In this document: piece by piece, positions 54,958 through 64,000 of the stretch
How the letters are laid out: each line of letters begins with the position of its first letter
How positions within the stretch are numbered: position 1 is the stretch's first letter
Source: Methanothermobacter sp.
Lineage (GTDB): Archaea; Methanobacteriota; Methanobacteria; Methanobacteriales; Methanothermobacteraceae
Assembly: GCF_030055435.1 (NCBI RefSeq)
Contig: NZ_JASFYG010000004.1
Location: 62,001-126,000 of the forward strand
DNA length: 64,000 nucleotides
Direction of reading: 5' to 3'
Notes under the pieces: model-generated
Seen by the model: only the letters and a program-made list of their open reading frames with translations
Database searches by the model: none
What the model was told of the DNA's origin: nothing
Translations under genes and position numbers: made by a program

Positions 54958-56460
54958 TCAGAAACCATAGGTACGCATATCCATTGCCTCTGGAATAAAA
55001 TTATGGACATCTGATGCTAAAAATCCTGTTCCAAATTTCTCCATTGCAAGTTCCCCTGCCTTGCCATTTATGAATGCTGCAAGTGAGGCGGAATCAAATG
55101 CTGAAAGCCCCATTGCACGCAGACCTGCAGTTAAACCGGCAAGGCAATCCCCTGTACCACCAACGGTCATTCCCGGACAGCCACTCCTGTTAAGCCGGAA
55201 TCTGTCACCCTGGAATATCATGTCGACGGGACCCTTCAGAAGGACTGTTCCACTTATCCTGGCTGAAATCGAGCTGAAGGCAGCCACCTGTTCATTGAAA
55301 TCAGCGTATACATCGGATCTGAGTTTAAAGAACTCCCTGAATTCACCCATATGCGGAGTTACAGTTAGATCCCTGTATTCAGTGACCTGGGAGTAATCAA
55401 TCAGCCTGAGTGCATCGGCATCGAGTACGAGGGGTTTTCCCATCTCCTGGAGTGCTCCAATAAGTTCTCTGAAAGTTTCTGATGTTGATTGGTGTCTACC
55501 AGCCCCACAGCCCACAAGAACCGAATCAGCGTTTTCTGCAAGTTCCAGAAGCTCGCCCAGGGACCCTGGCCCTATATATTTACCCTCAAGTTTTCTGACT
55601 ATTAGATCAGGTGAAACGGATTTGATGGCGCTGGCTGCGCTGCCCGGTGCTGCAACGGTTACAACGTCTGCACCTGCCCTCAGTGCGGAGATGGCTGCGA
55701 GTGCAGGGGCCCCTGAGTAGTGATGGCTTCCGCCGATAACCAGGACTCTCCCGTTTTCCCCCTTATGACTCTCAGGGCTCCTTGAGGGTATCCTTAGGAG
55801 ATCCCCTGGACCCACAAATACTTCGGCTGCCCGTGGTATCCCTATGTCCCTCACCACGATTTCCCCTGTGATGGCAGGGTCCGCCTTTTCAAGTCCATCC
55901 TTCATCCTGTGAAAGGTCACCGTAAGGTCTGCAGATACAGCAACATCATCCACGGTACCAGTCTCTGGGCTGAGTCCGCTTGGTATATCCACAGAAACCT
56001 TAAATGCGTCTGAACGGTTTATGAGCTCAATGGCTGACCTTGATGGTTCCCTTATAACCCCCCTGACACCCGTGCCAAGTACTGCATCAACAACCACATC
56101 TGCATCCACAGGAAAAAGCTCAGATGAATCACTGACTGTCCTTACACCGAGTATGCCTGGCTCCGGCTGCATGGCCATGAGAACATCCCAGTTACGCCGT
56201 GCCTCCTCTGACCCTATCCTTTCGGGGTGTGTGAGTAGGAGAACCTCAACCTGAAAACCCATGTTAAGGAGATGCCGTGCAGCAACAAACCCATCACCAC
56301 CATTTCCTCCCGATCCGCAAAATAATACGACCCTTCCTTCATCCGCATAGTTTCCTATCTCCTCTGCAACTGCCCTTCCAGCATTCTCCATAAGGGAAAG
56401 CCTTGGAATACCAAGATACTCCGCATTAATATCAGCTGTCGCCATGTCAATCGGCTTCAT
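54958..56460 (-). CDS. nnr: bifunctional NAD(P)H-hydrate repair enzyme Nnr (epimerase/dehydratase)
   Basis: Repairs hydrated NADH and NADPH. N-terminal YjeF_N epimerase domain (about 1-215) with AGRAVAEEI and GSGGNGGDGFVAARHL; C-terminal ADP-dependent ribokinase-like dehydratase (about 225-490) with VLVIGGSHHYSGAPALAAISALRAGADVVTV, VLDADALRL, LTPHMGEF-like VTPHMGEFREF, and GGTGDCLAGLTAGLRA. 500 residues is full length. ATG behind GGTGAAACAGTC. No operon partner. Confidence 0.94.
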   Translation of the reverse strand: MKPIDMATADINAEYLGIPRLSLMENAGRAVAEEIGNYADEGRVVLFCGSGGNGGDGFVAARHLLNMGFQVEVLLLTHPERIGSEEARRNWDVLMAMQPEPGILGVRTVSDSSELFPVDADVVVDAVLGTGVRGVIREPSRSAIELINRSDAFKVSVDIPSGLSPETGTVDDVAVSADLTVTFHRMKDGLEKADPAITGEIVVRDIGIPRAAEVFVGPGDLLRIPSRSPESHKGENGRVLVIGGSHHYSGAPALAAISALRAGADVVTVAAPGSAASAIKSVSPDLIVRKLEGKYIGPGSLGELLELAENADSVLVGCGAGRHQSTSETFRELIGALQEMGKPLVLDADALRLIDYSQVTEYRDLTVTPHMGEFREFFKLRSDVYADFNEQVAAFSSISARISGTVLLKGPVDMIFQGDRFRLNRSGCPGMTVGGTGDCLAGLTAGLRAMGLSAFDSASLAAFINGKAGELAMEKFGTGFLASDVHNFIPEAMDMRTYGF

Positions 56461-56572
56461 GACTGTTTCACCATCCTTAAAAATTTGAGGGTTAATTCCA
56501 GAGCCCCTCTCCAGATGCTCTGAATTTATATTATTGACTGACAGATATTAACATATCAACGGGAGGTTTCCC

Positions 56573-58501
56573 ATGCCACCCCAAAGAAATCTGGTGGAGA
56601 ATATCCCATATGTTCCCCTATCAGTCATATACTATGCTCTTGCAGCTCTGGCGGCCCTCGTAATATATGGTATAGTTGGCTCAATGTACATAATGGGGCT
56701 TGACCTCTACAATGCCATCTACTTTACAGTGATCACCATCGCCACTGTGGGTTACGGGGACATAACACCTGTCACTGTATCCCAGAAGATATTCTCTGTT
56801 ACCCTTGCCCTCGGTGGTGTGGGACTCATAGCCTATGTTTTAAGCTTAACCGTTTCGGTGATCACTATGACACTGCAGGAGACCATATCAGGTGCCCGGA
56901 TACGGAGATTAATGCAGTCAATGAACAACCACTTCATTCTCTGTGGTTTTGGCCGTGTTGGATCCGCCGTTTTTAAGGAACTCCTGAAAAGGAATCTGAA
57001 GACCATAATAATTGAGAAAGACCGAGAAATAGTAGAGAAGGAACTGTGGGAAGACCCCAAAGTACTTGCAATACCTGAAAGCGCGACAGATGAGGATACA
57101 CTCAGGGCGGCCGGGATAAAGAGGGCCCGTGGGGTTATAATAACAACCGGAGATGATGTTGACAACCTCTTCATAACCCTCACCTGCAGGGAGCTGAATC
57201 CAGACATATGGATCGTGGCAAGATCCAGTAAAAAGGAAAACATAAAGAGACTCTACCGTGCAGGGGCCAACCGTGTGATCTCCCCTGAAATCAGCGGGGG
57301 TGAGGACATCTACTTTGCAGCCATGGAACCCACCATGGTGAAGATAACAGTCAAGCATGATGTTGAGGATATTGGAAAAGAGGCAGAGATAATACTCAAG
57401 TATGGCTGCACACTGGAGGATATAGAGTATCACCTCCCTGAGTTCAAGGAGCCCTTGGTGAGGAAGATCGGGGTATCTGAGAGGAAAGAACTTGAAAGGT
57501 TTTTAAATGCTCTTGAGGGGGACCCGGCCAGAAAAAGCTCCCTTACAAGAATCTATGAGTCTGTGAGCGGAATACACTCCCACTGGATATCCGGGCCAGA
57601 CCGGGAAAGTATAGATAAGGTCATAGATGAACTCAGAGAGGAGGGTATACTTCTTGGGGTTAACCTCGATGACAATGAGATAAAGGAGGTTGCAAGGAAG
57701 CATGGAAGGCTTGTTGAGGTAATAATTAAGCCTGAAATGAGCATTGTTGAAAACCATGGAGTGGATGACATAAGAAGAGAAGCAGAGATCATAATAAAGA
57801 ATGGCTGTACAATCGAGGACATAGAGTACTACCTTCCAGGTTTCTCAGAGCCCCTCAGAAGAAACGTGGGTGTTGACTCAATGGAGGACGTCGACCGTTT
57901 CATAAAGACCCTCAGAAGTGACTCCCGTAAACTGGAATCCCTTGACAGACTCTACACCCTCTCAGGTGGGGGTATACATACACACAGGATATCAGGACCA
58001 GATGCAAAGAGCCTCGAGAGGGTGGAGGAGGAGCTCAGAAAGGAGGGTTTCCTCATAGGAGTCAATCTGGACCTTGCTGAAATCAAATCCATAATACAGG
58101 AATCAGGGAGGGTTGTGGAGATGCTCCTCAAACACGACCTGGGTAACATGGATGACAAGGAGATAATTATAAGGAGGGGCGGTCGAATTCTTGACTCAAA
58201 GCATTACCTTCCAGGGGTTAGGCAGGTGGTGACAAGAAACCTCAACATAAGGAACATGGATGACCTCCAAAGGTGCCTAGAGGAACTTGAAAAGCCAGAC
58301 GCCAGAAGATCCCTGAAGGCCTTGTACAGCATATCAAGGAATATACACTCACACACCGTCGCTGCAAGTGACGTTAAGGTTATAAAGAAGATTGAGAGGG
58401 ACCTTGAAAAGAGGGGTGTGCTCCTTGGTGTTAACCTCTCTGAAGATGAGATATGGGATATAGTTGAAAGTGAAATGATGGAGAAGTTCTGCATAGAATA
58501 A
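56573..58501 (+). CDS. K+ channel with RCK domain and three copies of an unrecognised C-terminal domain
   Basis: 642 residues. Two membrane helices (about 17-38 and 70-98) flank a pore with the TVGYGD selectivity filter at 58-63. An RCK (TrkA-N) Rossmann domain follows (about 117-240, [18 protein letters not shown]). Instead of the usual TrkA-C domain, the rest (about 255-642) is three tandem repeats of about 130 residues that begin [18 protein letters not shown] and VVEMLLKHD and contain [11 protein letters not shown] / [11 protein letters not shown] / [11 protein letters not shown] and [12 protein letters not shown] / [12 protein letters not shown] / [12 protein letters not shown]. The third lacks the SGPD. 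Not the well-studied MthK. GGGAGGTTTCCC precedes the ATG. Likely gated by a cytoplasmic ligand, identity unknown. Confidence 0.88.
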
Positions 58502-58537
58502 AAATTTCCTAAAAATAGAAAAAGAAAAATGGAATAT

Positions 58538-59431
58538 TCAGAAGAGATCGTGGAGTTTTATCTGGTATGCCCCCAGGTTGCCACCGTAGTTCCCTGCACT
58601 TATCTTAATTATGCCTGGAACGGTACATGCAGCCTTTATACCTTCCTTCATCGCCTCCCTTACAGCATCTTCGTTGACACCGTCTATAACTATCTCATAT
58701 ACCCCGTTAACGTTTTCAGGTATCTCGCTGCCCTCAACCTCATCTTTGAGGGTGACGCACATCTTCTCATTGGTTGAGGCGTTGAGGAACTTGTACTTGT
58801 TTGACCCGACCTTTGAACCTGAAGCCACAACACCACCAGGGAATGGTGTTATGGTGCCTTCAACTGCAGCTATCGCATCCACTGCTGCCTGGGCCGCCAG
58901 AAGGGCTGATGCCTGACTGTCACCCAGAATGAAGAAGTTTCCACCTGCAACCCCATCCTTTATTCCGAATTCACTTTCAATGAGGAAGTCCCCAGACATT
59001 ATCGGGATTGAGTGGATTTTCCTTCCATCAATTTCAAGTTCCTTCTCGTAGCCATCACCGAAGAACTTGAGTTTGAATCCCACATTGAGTTTTTCGTCCT
59101 CGTCATCAAGAGCATCGAATACTGCGGTTGTTGGTGCTGTAAGTATACCCATCCCTATTCTTTCAAGGAGTTCATGGTCCAGGTTTTTCTTTGATGGGTT
59201 GCAGATCATTATTATGTATCCAGGTCTTCCATCAGGGGTCTCCTCTGGTGGAACGTAGCAGTCTATACCTGCCTCTGCAGGGCACCCTATAACAGACGTA
59301 CCGTAACCTGTTGCCTCGGTTGCAGCTATCTTTGCAAGTTTTTTTGTTGCTGCGGTTACAAGAACCCTTGAAACCTTTATGCCGAAGGCCTCCGCAAATG
59401 TATCCTCTATTTCAACACCATTTATCTCCAT
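58538..59431 (-). CDS. ftr: formylmethanofuran-tetrahydromethanopterin formyltransferase
   Basis: Transfers the formyl group from formylmethanofuran to tetrahydromethanopterin, step two of CO2 reduction to methane. 297 residues in the FtR two-domain fold; [35 protein letters not shown] and [18 protein letters not shown] are conserved. The acidic composition is typical of the thermophile enzyme. The ATG at 59431 lies behind GGTGATAATT. The upstream region carries a 52-bp tandem repeat. Confidence 0.95.
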
Positions 59432-59440
59432 AATTATCAC

Positions 59441-59772: not shown

Positions 59773-60849
59773 TCATTCACCGTCAGCTGGCTTCAGTACC
59801 TTTATCCTGAAACATGTTCCAGGTGAGAGCCTGTAATCCACCTTTGCCTCTATCTGATTCAGCAAACTCCTTACAAGTTGCAGACCCAGTGAATCTGCAT
59901 TCTCAAAGTCCACGTCCTCAGGGAAGCCACGGCCATTGTCCCTGACCTCAAGAATGTAGTGGTCATCCTTATTCCTGAAAACAGCCCGTATCTTTCCATC
60001 CTGTCCCTCGGCGAAGGCATGTCTGAAGCTGTTGGATAATAACTCCGAGAGTATCATTCCAAGGGGCACTGCCAGCTCAAGGTCCATTTCAGCATCCTCA
60101 AAGTACATCTCAAGTCTCACATTTCCCGGTTCAGGCGAATATGTGCTTAAAATACCTGAAACAATACTCCGGGCATAGCCTGCAAAGTTTATTGACTCAA
60201 AGGATCCATCATGAATAAACTTCTCATAGGCCTTCCTTATTGACCTCAGACGATTCTGAGTATCTCTGAGAAGCTCATAATCATCTCCGTCTTTTATATA
60301 AGGGAACTGCAGATTAACTATGCTTGTGATAAGCTGAAGATTTTTGTCTATCTGCCTGTAGAGACCATTTATTGTCTTCTTCAATTCAGCTATCTCTTTT
60401 CGGAGTTCAGTCACCTCATGAAGCTTTTCTGAAGCATCCCTCGCAGTTACAAGAACAAAAACCTGGCCTGATAGTTCCAGGGGCCTGAAGCTCAGTTCAA
60501 GTGGCACATTCCTGCCATCTGCGTCCATGAACTCCATGATAGTAGTGCATGGGCGGGGTTCCTCAGCCAGCCGGTCGAGTATTATCCTCAGCCTGGATTT
60601 CTGAATGATGGGGATCGCCCTCAGCGTTGGAAGGTACCTTCCCCTAAGATTATCAGGATCATATCCCAGTTTATCAGCAAATGAATTGCTCAGATCGAGT
60701 ATGAAACCATTTATGTCCTGTAATATCCATGGTTCAGAAGATTCCAGAAGGAGATTGAGGTAATCCGGTGATGAGCGTATCTCCTCCACGAGGTTCTCAT
60801 ACATTTTTTCGTCATGTAACTTATCGGTTAAGAAAACTCTCTCAAGCAT
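59773..60849 (-). CDS. PAS-domain sensor histidine kinase-like protein lacking the phosphoacceptor His
   Basis: 358 residues, soluble. A PAS domain (about 35-135, WILQDINGFILDLSNSFADKLGYD) is followed by a coiled coil and a HisKA_2-type dimerisation region, then a HATPase_c domain with N box LSELLSNSFRHAF, DNGRGFP and SLGLQLVRSLL. In HisKA_2 kinases the motif is EIHHRVKNNLQ; here the aligned segment GLYRQIDKNLQ has Tyr-Arg in place of His-His. The ATP site looks intact, but autophosphorylation at the usual site seems impossible. GGGGATAATTC precedes the ATG. No response regulator gene is in the window. Confidence 0.82.
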   Translation of the reverse strand: MLERVFLTDKLHDEKMYENLVEEIRSSPDYLNLLLESSEPWILQDINGFILDLSNSFADKLGYDPDNLRGRYLPTLRAIPIIQKSRLRIILDRLAEEPRPCTTIMEFMDADGRNVPLELSFRPLELSGQVFVLVTARDASEKLHEVTELRKEIAELKKTINGLYRQIDKNLQLITSIVNLQFPYIKDGDDYELLRDTQNRLRSIRKAYEKFIHDGSFESINFAGYARSIVSGILSTYSPEPGNVRLEMYFEDAEMDLELAVPLGMILSELLSNSFRHAFAEGQDGKIRAVFRNKDDHYILEVRDNGRGFPEDVDFENADSLGLQLVRSLLNQIEAKVDYRLSPGTCFRIKVLKPADGE

Positions 60850-62963: not shown

Positions 62964-63107
62964 ACTGGATTGAATTTTATATAGACTGGAGTAGATTATA
63001 TCTACCCAACGAACTTTATTTTTTGCTACCCAATTGGAGTATTACCATCTCTTTATATATTATTCTAAAAATTTATATTGAAACACCCCTATTCTTTATA
63101 TGGTAAC

Positions 63108-64000
63108 ATGAGATACGTTGGAAAGAGGGACCTTTTTACCGTTGGAAAGTATCTTGGCAATATAATGCAGGGGATAGGCTTTGTTGTTGCATTACCCCTA
63201 ATTGTTGCACTGATCTACGGTGAAAGCGATTTTTTAAGTTTTATTGTGCCCTCGATTATCTCATTAAGCATTGGAACTGTGCTGAAGAGATATTCCCCTG
63301 AGGAATGCGCCATACGCCTGAAACATGGTATGATGGTTGCATGTCTTGCCTGGCTCTGGGCCGGATTCATAGGTAGCCTTATAATGATGTCAGCCCTCAA
63401 CATCGATTTTGCAAATGCCTTCTTTGAGAACATGTCCGCCTGGACAGGCAGTGGACTCACAGTTTTCTCCAATGTTGAAGCGCTCCCAAAATCAATTCTA
63501 TTCTTAAGAAGCCTTGAACAGTGGATCGGTGGGCTTGGAGTTGTTATAGTTGTTATAGGTGTCCTCATAAGGCCAGGTACAGCTGCTGCGCGTTTATACA
63601 AGTCCGAGGCAAGGGAGGAGAGGATAAAACCCAGCATAGCAAACACCGTCAGGACTATCTGGTGGATCTACCTCACCTACACGGTCCTCGGGATCGTTCT
63701 CTATGGGCTGACAGGGATGCCCCTCTTTGATGCCATCAACAACACCCTCACGAACCTCTCAACCGGGGGGATGTCCATAAAGAACCTCAACATTGGCTAC
63801 TACCGTAGCGATACAGTCTACATTGTAACCATGTTTCTCATGATACTGGGTGGAACAAGTTTCCTTGTGCACTACCAGGCCATTAAGGGGAGATTCTCAA
63901 ATGTTCTAAGGGATATACAGCTACAGGCAACTTTTGCCTTTATAGTCCTCTTCACGGTCCTTTCGGTTTACGTTGGTGGTGTGGCCCCCCTTGAATCAGT
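63108..64000 (+). CDS. trkH: TrkH/KtrB-family K+ transporter (partial, cut by right edge)
   Basis: The ATG at 63108 opens a frame that runs to the window end (about 297 codons) without stop. Several membrane segments are present, and two pore filter segments are visible: AWTGSGLTVFSN and NLSTGGMSIKNL, with the SxGLT/STGGMS pattern of TrkH. The sequence LRSLEQWIGGLGVVI is a conserved TrkH helix. It imports K+ with a TrkA-type regulatory partner, which is not in this window. A TATA-like ATTTATATTG lies about 35 bases upstream. Confidence 0.9.
   Translation, partial: MRYVGKRDLFTVGKYLGNIMQGIGFVVALPLIVALIYGESDFLSFIVPSIISLSIGTVLKRYSPEECAIRLKHGMMVACLAWLWAGFIGSLIMMSALNIDFANAFFENMSAWTGSGLTVFSNVEALPKSILFLRSLEQWIGGLGVVIVVIGVLIRPGTAAARLYKSEAREERIKPSIANTVRTIWWIYLTYTVLGIVLYGLTGMPLFDAINNTLTNLSTGGMSIKNLNIGYYRSDTVYIVTMFLMILGGTSFLVHYQAIKGRFSNVLRDIQLQATFAFIVLFTVLSVYVGGVAPLES

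Follow-up and report, generated by a model that had tools for sequence, protein, structure and literature searches.

Known RCK-gated potassium channels use the RCK fold to respond to Ca2+, Na+ or nucleotides. The 3H domain was reportedly defined as a small-molecule-binding domain by Anantharaman, Koonin and Aravind (2001). In NiaR (PDB IDs: 1j5y, 9ebr, 7cv0/7cv2), one 3H domain is joined to a DNA-binding HTH, acts as the dimerization domain and binds Zn or Ni; in B. halodurans NiaR, zinc is bound by Glu91, His150 and His152 and the niacin carboxylate is held by His83 together with the metal (PMC7713382). The Ca2+-gated channel MthK forms an octameric ring through extra RCK chains that are produced from an internal translation start (PMC3510474). 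GsuK (4gx5, 4gx0) is likewise RCK-gated and has several ligand sites per subunit, including sites for nucleotides; its ring integrates several ligands and NAD+ gates the channel (PMC3510474). A literature search returned no paper that names the 3H domain and potassium channels together and no experimental study of the channel described here.

The gene analyzed here lies in a 64,000-nucleotide stretch of Methanothermobacter DNA (the window) and encodes a protein whose parts are ordinary and whose combination is unusual, namely an RCK-gated K+ channel with a known metabolite-sensing domain. With MthK, which is its best PDB fold match and is among its best PDB sequence matches, the channel shares the two-transmembrane (2TM) pore, a TVGYGD-type filter and RCK-N, as well as an ATG near the place of the MthK internal start. 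Unlike MthK, it is devoid of RCK-C (TrkA-C), carries three 3H domains instead and has an RCK-N domain with the GxGxxG nucleotide motif. An MthK paralogue is encoded elsewhere in the same genome. GsuK is the best PDB sequence match but has two RCK domains per subunit and no 3H domain. NiaR resembles the channel 3H domains in profile, PDB sequence and predicted fold, and all four residues of its metal/niacin site (three His, one Glu) are invariant in channel copies 1 and 2. However, the channel has three 3H copies following a pore and RCK-N, each copy is succeeded by an extra strand and helix (LLGVNL..EIKE), and the copies contain archaeal-specific Arg, Tyr and Pro residues, with the invariant Tyr, His and Gly of NiaR being replaced. 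The same archaeal-type 3H domain with invariant Tyr, Pro and Arg is found in the PRK12338 kinase, which differs from the channel in being a P-loop kinase with a single 3H domain whose metal-site Glu is often absent.

Channel gene, pore and RCK-N domain

The channel gene, its control signals and its N-terminal modules were located as follows.
56525-56532, + strand: TATA-like element TTTATATT in the short intergenic region shared with the divergent nnr gene (sequence read)
56561-56566, + strand: Shine-Dalgarno sequence GGGAGG of the channel gene (sequence read; feature entry 56525-56566)
56573-58501, + strand: K+ channel gene encoding a 2TM pore, RCK-N and three 3H domains, 642 aa
56618-56866, + strand: pore module with TM1, pore helix, TVGYGD filter and TM2 (Pfam Ion_trans_2, E 1.8e-13)
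56744-56761, + strand: TVGYGD selectivity filter
56909-56911, + strand: in-frame ATG (M113) just before RCK-N, a lead from comparison with the MthK internal start
56933-57286, + strand: RCK-N (TrkA_N) with invariant GxGxxG (Pfam TrkA_N, E 1.7e-33)

The open reading frame 56573-58501 is a real gene, because it is preceded by a TATA-like box and by a Shine-Dalgarno sequence read 6 nt upstream of its ATG and because the frame is kept open in related genomes, the three-copy forms having protein identities of 67-97%. Pfam, sequence and model all find the 2TM pore with K+ filter and the RCK-N domain that characterize RCK-gated K+ channels. Ion_trans_2 was assigned by Pfam to residues 27-98 and TrkA_N to residues 121-238, confirming the preliminary description, which had read a TVGYGD pore followed by RCK-N. 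At the sequence level, MthK matches residues 24-237 with an E-value of 1e-22, and helices are predicted at residues 16-40, 45-58 and 69-116 in the full-length model. As all structure models of the channel, it is a single chain; it has a pLDDT of 86 and MthK as its best fold match, and its pTM of 0.47 makes the domain arrangement unreliable. The absence of TrkA-C, also noted previously, held up: Pfam found no TrkA_C (RCK-C) in the channel protein even at E ≤ 10, with the protein of the neighboring trkA gene serving as positive control (TrkA_C, E 4e-13), and a hidden TrkA-C was rejected on this basis.

Two in-frame ATGs, M113 and M116 (56909-56920), are located in the TM2-RCK linker and are preceded within the genus by AGG or GGAG. 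ATGs similar to M113 were found by sequence comparison in most, not all, relatives. M113 lies about where MthK starts internally and may, as a lead, represent the start of a soluble RCK-3H chain.

The filter region is broken around residues 58-71 in two of the eight genus members, the remainder of both frames being intact. One orthologue (G005, locus L014) is missing one G in GTGGG within the selectivity filter, and the other (G007, locus L013) has a 67-bp insertion, 33 bp of which are a duplication and 34 bp of which were found nowhere else in nine genomes. These lesions suggest that conduction can be dispensed with, although a sequencing error is a possible cause in G005. The class-level relative G151 (locus L105) has the filter GFGD, not GYGD.

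Three tandem 3H domains

The region following RCK-N consists of three copies with the approximate limits given here.
57332-57703, + strand: 3H copy 1, residues 254-377 (3H E 1.3e-23 alone, 83.5 bits)
57734-58105, + strand: 3H copy 2, residues 388-511 (3H E 1.8e-25 alone, 89.4 bits)
58109-58480, + strand: 3H copy 3, residues 513-636 (3H E 1e-19 alone, 71.0 bits)

The preliminary description had seen in this region three homologous repeats of an unrecognized domain. Their homology is far beyond chance, with identities of 51% between copies 1 and 2 (z = 50 over shuffles), 38% between copies 2 and 3 (z = 29) and 33% between copies 1 and 3 (z = 28). The claim that the domain belongs to no named family is wrong, because Pfam assigns each repeat to 3H (PF02829) with almost complete coverage of the profile, all three above the curated cut-off of 25 bits, and the structure search agrees. 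Among PDB sequences, the repeats retrieved NiaR from T. maritima and, with a weak match, from B. halodurans; the NiaR chains 9ebr and 1j5y match copy 2 at about 5e-12. In a Foldseek search with an AlphaFold2 model restricted to the three 3H copies (pLDDT 86), the only matches at E ≤ 0.001 were 9ebr, 1j5y and 7cv0, all of them NiaR; NikR was matched very weakly and below significance. By profile and predicted structure, the repeats are copies of the known 3H domain with a NiaR-type fold; with near full-length PF02829 matches for every copy and NiaR as the sole strong structural match, a new, unnamed domain is a practically untenable reading.

The start of copy 2 had to be corrected. It had been placed at LVEVIIKPE, about nine residues early with respect to the equivalent of MVKITVKHD in copy 1. 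An apparently missing first His in copy 2 was an alignment-register error, its place being occupied by H395.

Putative metal and ligand site

The equivalents of the NiaR site residues are H262, E270, H335 and H337 in copy 1 and H395, E403, H469 and H471 in copy 2. Neither set varies among the 15 of 15 three-copy channels, and the residues of copy 1 are likewise invariant in all 20 one-copy channels. The metal-binding residues corresponding to Glu91, His150 and His152 of NiaR are thus present in copies 1 and 2, which also keep the pocket residue F130. Copy 3 retains H521, H592 and H594 in all 15 three-copy channels, the three conserved His being found in 100% of the channel copies of all three types, with DDK, one residue shorter, at the place of the Glu, which is out of register, and Cys in place of the pocket Phe. 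Its role has probably shifted, as judged by these substitutions, in agreement with the missing SGPD motif, where AASD is found instead; the divergence of the third copy and its lack of SGPD had both been recognized before. The ligand-binding role that it had put forward as possible for the repeats is supported as well.

The surroundings of the site differ from NiaR. R297/R430/R555 is found in 100% of all archaeal copies and is Gly or Ala in 32 of 32 NiaR-type rows, 30 of which come from the class of Pontibacillus as short frames of 175-288 aa, mostly about 190 aa, the label 'NiaR-type' of the added bacterial rows being given on the basis of 3H and size. Y286/Y419 is present in 100% of copies 1 and 2, one-copy domains and kinase domains, with Val or Ile in NiaR, and P294/P427 sits in an inserted column that is absent from NiaR and common to archaeal 3H domains. 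Tyr112, His109 and Gly113, invariant in all 32 of these NiaR-type rows, are all replaced in the archaeal copies; this set of niacin-pocket or interface and neighboring residues (Y112', H109, G113) was found in no channel or kinase group. The N-terminal HTH of NiaR is also absent according to Pfam, the pore and RCK-N being found there instead.

Because the pocket Tyr, His and Gly of NiaR are replaced and the archaeal Tyr, Pro and Arg are present, the ligand is probably different from nicotinate. The metal-carboxylate chemistry is presumably kept, and outside its carboxylate the ligand would differ from niacin, probably being a more anionic acid rather than plain, free nicotinate. About half of the kinase 3H domains are missing the metal-site Glu, and it is therefore uncertain that the metal site is common to all archaeal 3H domains.

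A second 3H protein in the same genome

Searching the other proteins of the genome for the domain, a check named in the preliminary description, yielded one more 3H protein, the only other one of the genome.
G000:C6:83270-84211 (locus L003), - strand: PRK12338 kinase with C-terminal 3H domain, annotated 'hypothetical'

Its kinase part matches 2-phosphoglycerate kinase (2PGK) at 4e-58, which is below the curated cut-off, and is also similar to mevalonate-3-phosphate 5-kinase. A separate bona fide 2PGK is encoded in 13 of 13 genomes checked, and some genera have the 3H kinase without the channel. Methanobacteria contain the trianionic solute cyclic 2,3-diphosphoglycerate (cDPG), a product of the 2PGK route, and intracellular K+ of M. 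fervidus amounts to 500-900 mM (PMC12136491, PMC1224877). With a 2PGK-like 3H kinase, an anionic cDPG and high K+, a phosphoglycerate would be a reasonable candidate for a shared signal.

Distribution and history

All eight genomes of the genus carry the channel gene; at the level of the order, the count is 90 of 151 genomes, or 57 of 90 if only good genomes are considered. A different family of the class contributes one genome with a three-copy channel (G151, locus L105), the only genome added by a phylum-wide search. Most of the remaining carriers encode a Methanobrevibacter-type protein of about 380-395 aa with one 3H copy. Trees were built from 86 and from 116 3H domains. Each of the three copies forms a group of its own, supported at 98/95 for copy 2, at 100/100 for copy 3 and weakly, at 72/59, for copy 1; the one-copy domains cluster with copy 1 (96/92). 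The trees are most simply explained by an ancient triplication after which copies 2 and 3 were lost in the one-copy lineages, and the three-copy arrangement seems to have persisted from the base of the class Methanobacteria onward.

3H channels were also sought outside Methanobacteria, and none appeared in the bacterial samples covered. A profile built here found no 3H domain in 40 bacterial channels from a DNA scan, and only one of six bacterial genomes checked gave a 3H match, to a protein of NiaR size. A single-sequence scan of genome contigs gave no match.

Genomic neighborhood

Three neighboring genes were assigned in the window.
54958-56460, - strand: nnr, NAD(P)H-hydrate repair enzyme (Pfam YjeF_N 1.7e-46, Carb_kinase 1.3e-46)
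58538-59440, - strand: ftr, formylmethanofuran:H4MPT formyltransferase (Pfam FTR, FTR_C)
63078-64000, + strand: trkH, extending past the window end (Pfam TrkH 1.3e-59)

In the genome, trkH is followed by trkA. Divergent nnr, channel and convergent ftr are arranged in this order in 11 of 11 Methanobacteria loci, those of one-copy channels included, and trkH-trkA lie downstream in channel orientation in 10 of the 11. Because trkH-trkA follow, the gene order assigns the channel to a potassium locus. The adjacent nnr hints at NAD chemistry, a weak argument because ftr and trkHA are about equally constant. Within the window, the arrangement that puts nnr and ftr beside a K+ channel covers 54958-59440. 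Adjoining ftr is a PAS/HisKA_2 histidine kinase (59773-60849, - strand) that is found in some syntenic relatives only.

Proposed mechanism and alternative explanations

We consider it fairly probable that the protein is an RCK-gated K+ channel in which three 3H domains replace RCK-C as metal-dependent sensors of a small carboxylate, a small metabolite thus being the probable signal for opening or closing. The channel would be tetrameric and MthK/GsuK-like with three tandem 3H domains in place of RCK-C/TrkA-C. As in MthK and GsuK, the RCK-N domains would form a gating ring, and the ligand would be sensed by the 3H copies, which would take over from the RCK-C dimer interface. Copies 1 and 2 most likely hold a divalent metal to which the carboxylate of the metabolite is bound, and for copy 3 a structural role or another ligand is likelier. 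Ligand binding would shift the packing of the 3H domains, which are dimeric in NiaR, a movement that the RCK-N ring would pass on as a pull on the inner pore helices. The 2PGK-like 3H kinase of the same genomes may sense this ligand too. Within this picture, domain identity, site conservation, triplication history and synteny come directly from the data, and K+ conduction, metal occupancy, the ligand, gating and stoichiometry are deduced from them. Twelve 3H copies per tetramer, as counted in the preliminary description, are plausible arithmetic; by analogy, use of an MthK-like internal start might lead to eight RCK-N and 24 3H domains per ring.

Alternative explanations differ mainly in what the 3H domains would sense. 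It is possible, if doubtful, that the ligand is a phosphoglycerate of the cDPG branch and that channel and 3H kinase are under joint control, by which K+ and its organic counter-ion would rise and fall in step. The 2PGK likeness (4e-58) of the only other 3H protein, the bona fide 2PGK in 13 of 13 genomes checked the trianionic cDPG of Methanobacteria and the 500-900 mM K+ of M. fervidus (PMC12136491, PMC1224877) agree with this, and the invariant archaeal Arg and Tyr would suit a more anionic ligand. However, the kinase scores below the 2PGK cut-off, also resembles mevalonate-3-phosphate 5-kinase and is found without the channel in some genera, and the ligand itself is deduced. Somewhat less likely, nicotinic acid or another pyridine or NAD precursor would be sensed, tying K+ flux to NAD status. 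NiaR and the channel copies have domain and site residues in common, nnr is divergent at all 11 loci, RCK-N retains its nucleotide motif and GsuK is gated by NAD+ (PMC3510474), but the replacement of NiaR-invariant Y112, H109 and G113, together with an Arg and a Tyr foreign to NiaR, argues against nicotinate, and the proximity of nnr counts for little with ftr and trkHA about as constant.

Two further explanations dispense with an organic ligand. A channel gated by metal alone (e.g. Ni2+, Zn2+ or Co2+) would account for the three His and the Glu being the most conserved residues and would fit the Zn or Ni bound by NiaR (PMC7713382) and the very weak, non-significant structural match to NikR. 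We regard it as unlikely, given that the metal of NiaR is present with and without niacin, the acid being the signal, and that non-metal residues around the pocket are also conserved in the archaeal copies. Slightly less likely again is a ligand-free assembly scaffold replacing the RCK-C dimer interface: dimerization of the NiaR 3H domain (PMC7713382), the altered site of copy 3 and the loss of two of three copies in one-copy lineages would all be compatible with it; the invariance of the site over deep divergence, both in copies 1 and 2 and in every one-copy channel, speaks against it.

Significance

The channel places an unrelated metabolite-sensing domain, in three copies, where a K+ channel would have RCK-C. 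Methanobacteria maintain very high K+ that is balanced by organic anions, and the channel together with its 3H kinase partner offers a testable molecular lead on how K+ and organic anions are matched. In its most far-reaching form, which we hold to be rather improbable, the methanobacterial 3H domain would be a shared sensor of a cDPG-pathway phosphoglycerate that gates the K+ channel and regulates the 2PGK-like kinase. If this is true, a single ligand acting at up to 12, or in an MthK-like octameric ring 24, metal-dependent sites would keep cellular K+ and its organic counter-ion coordinated.
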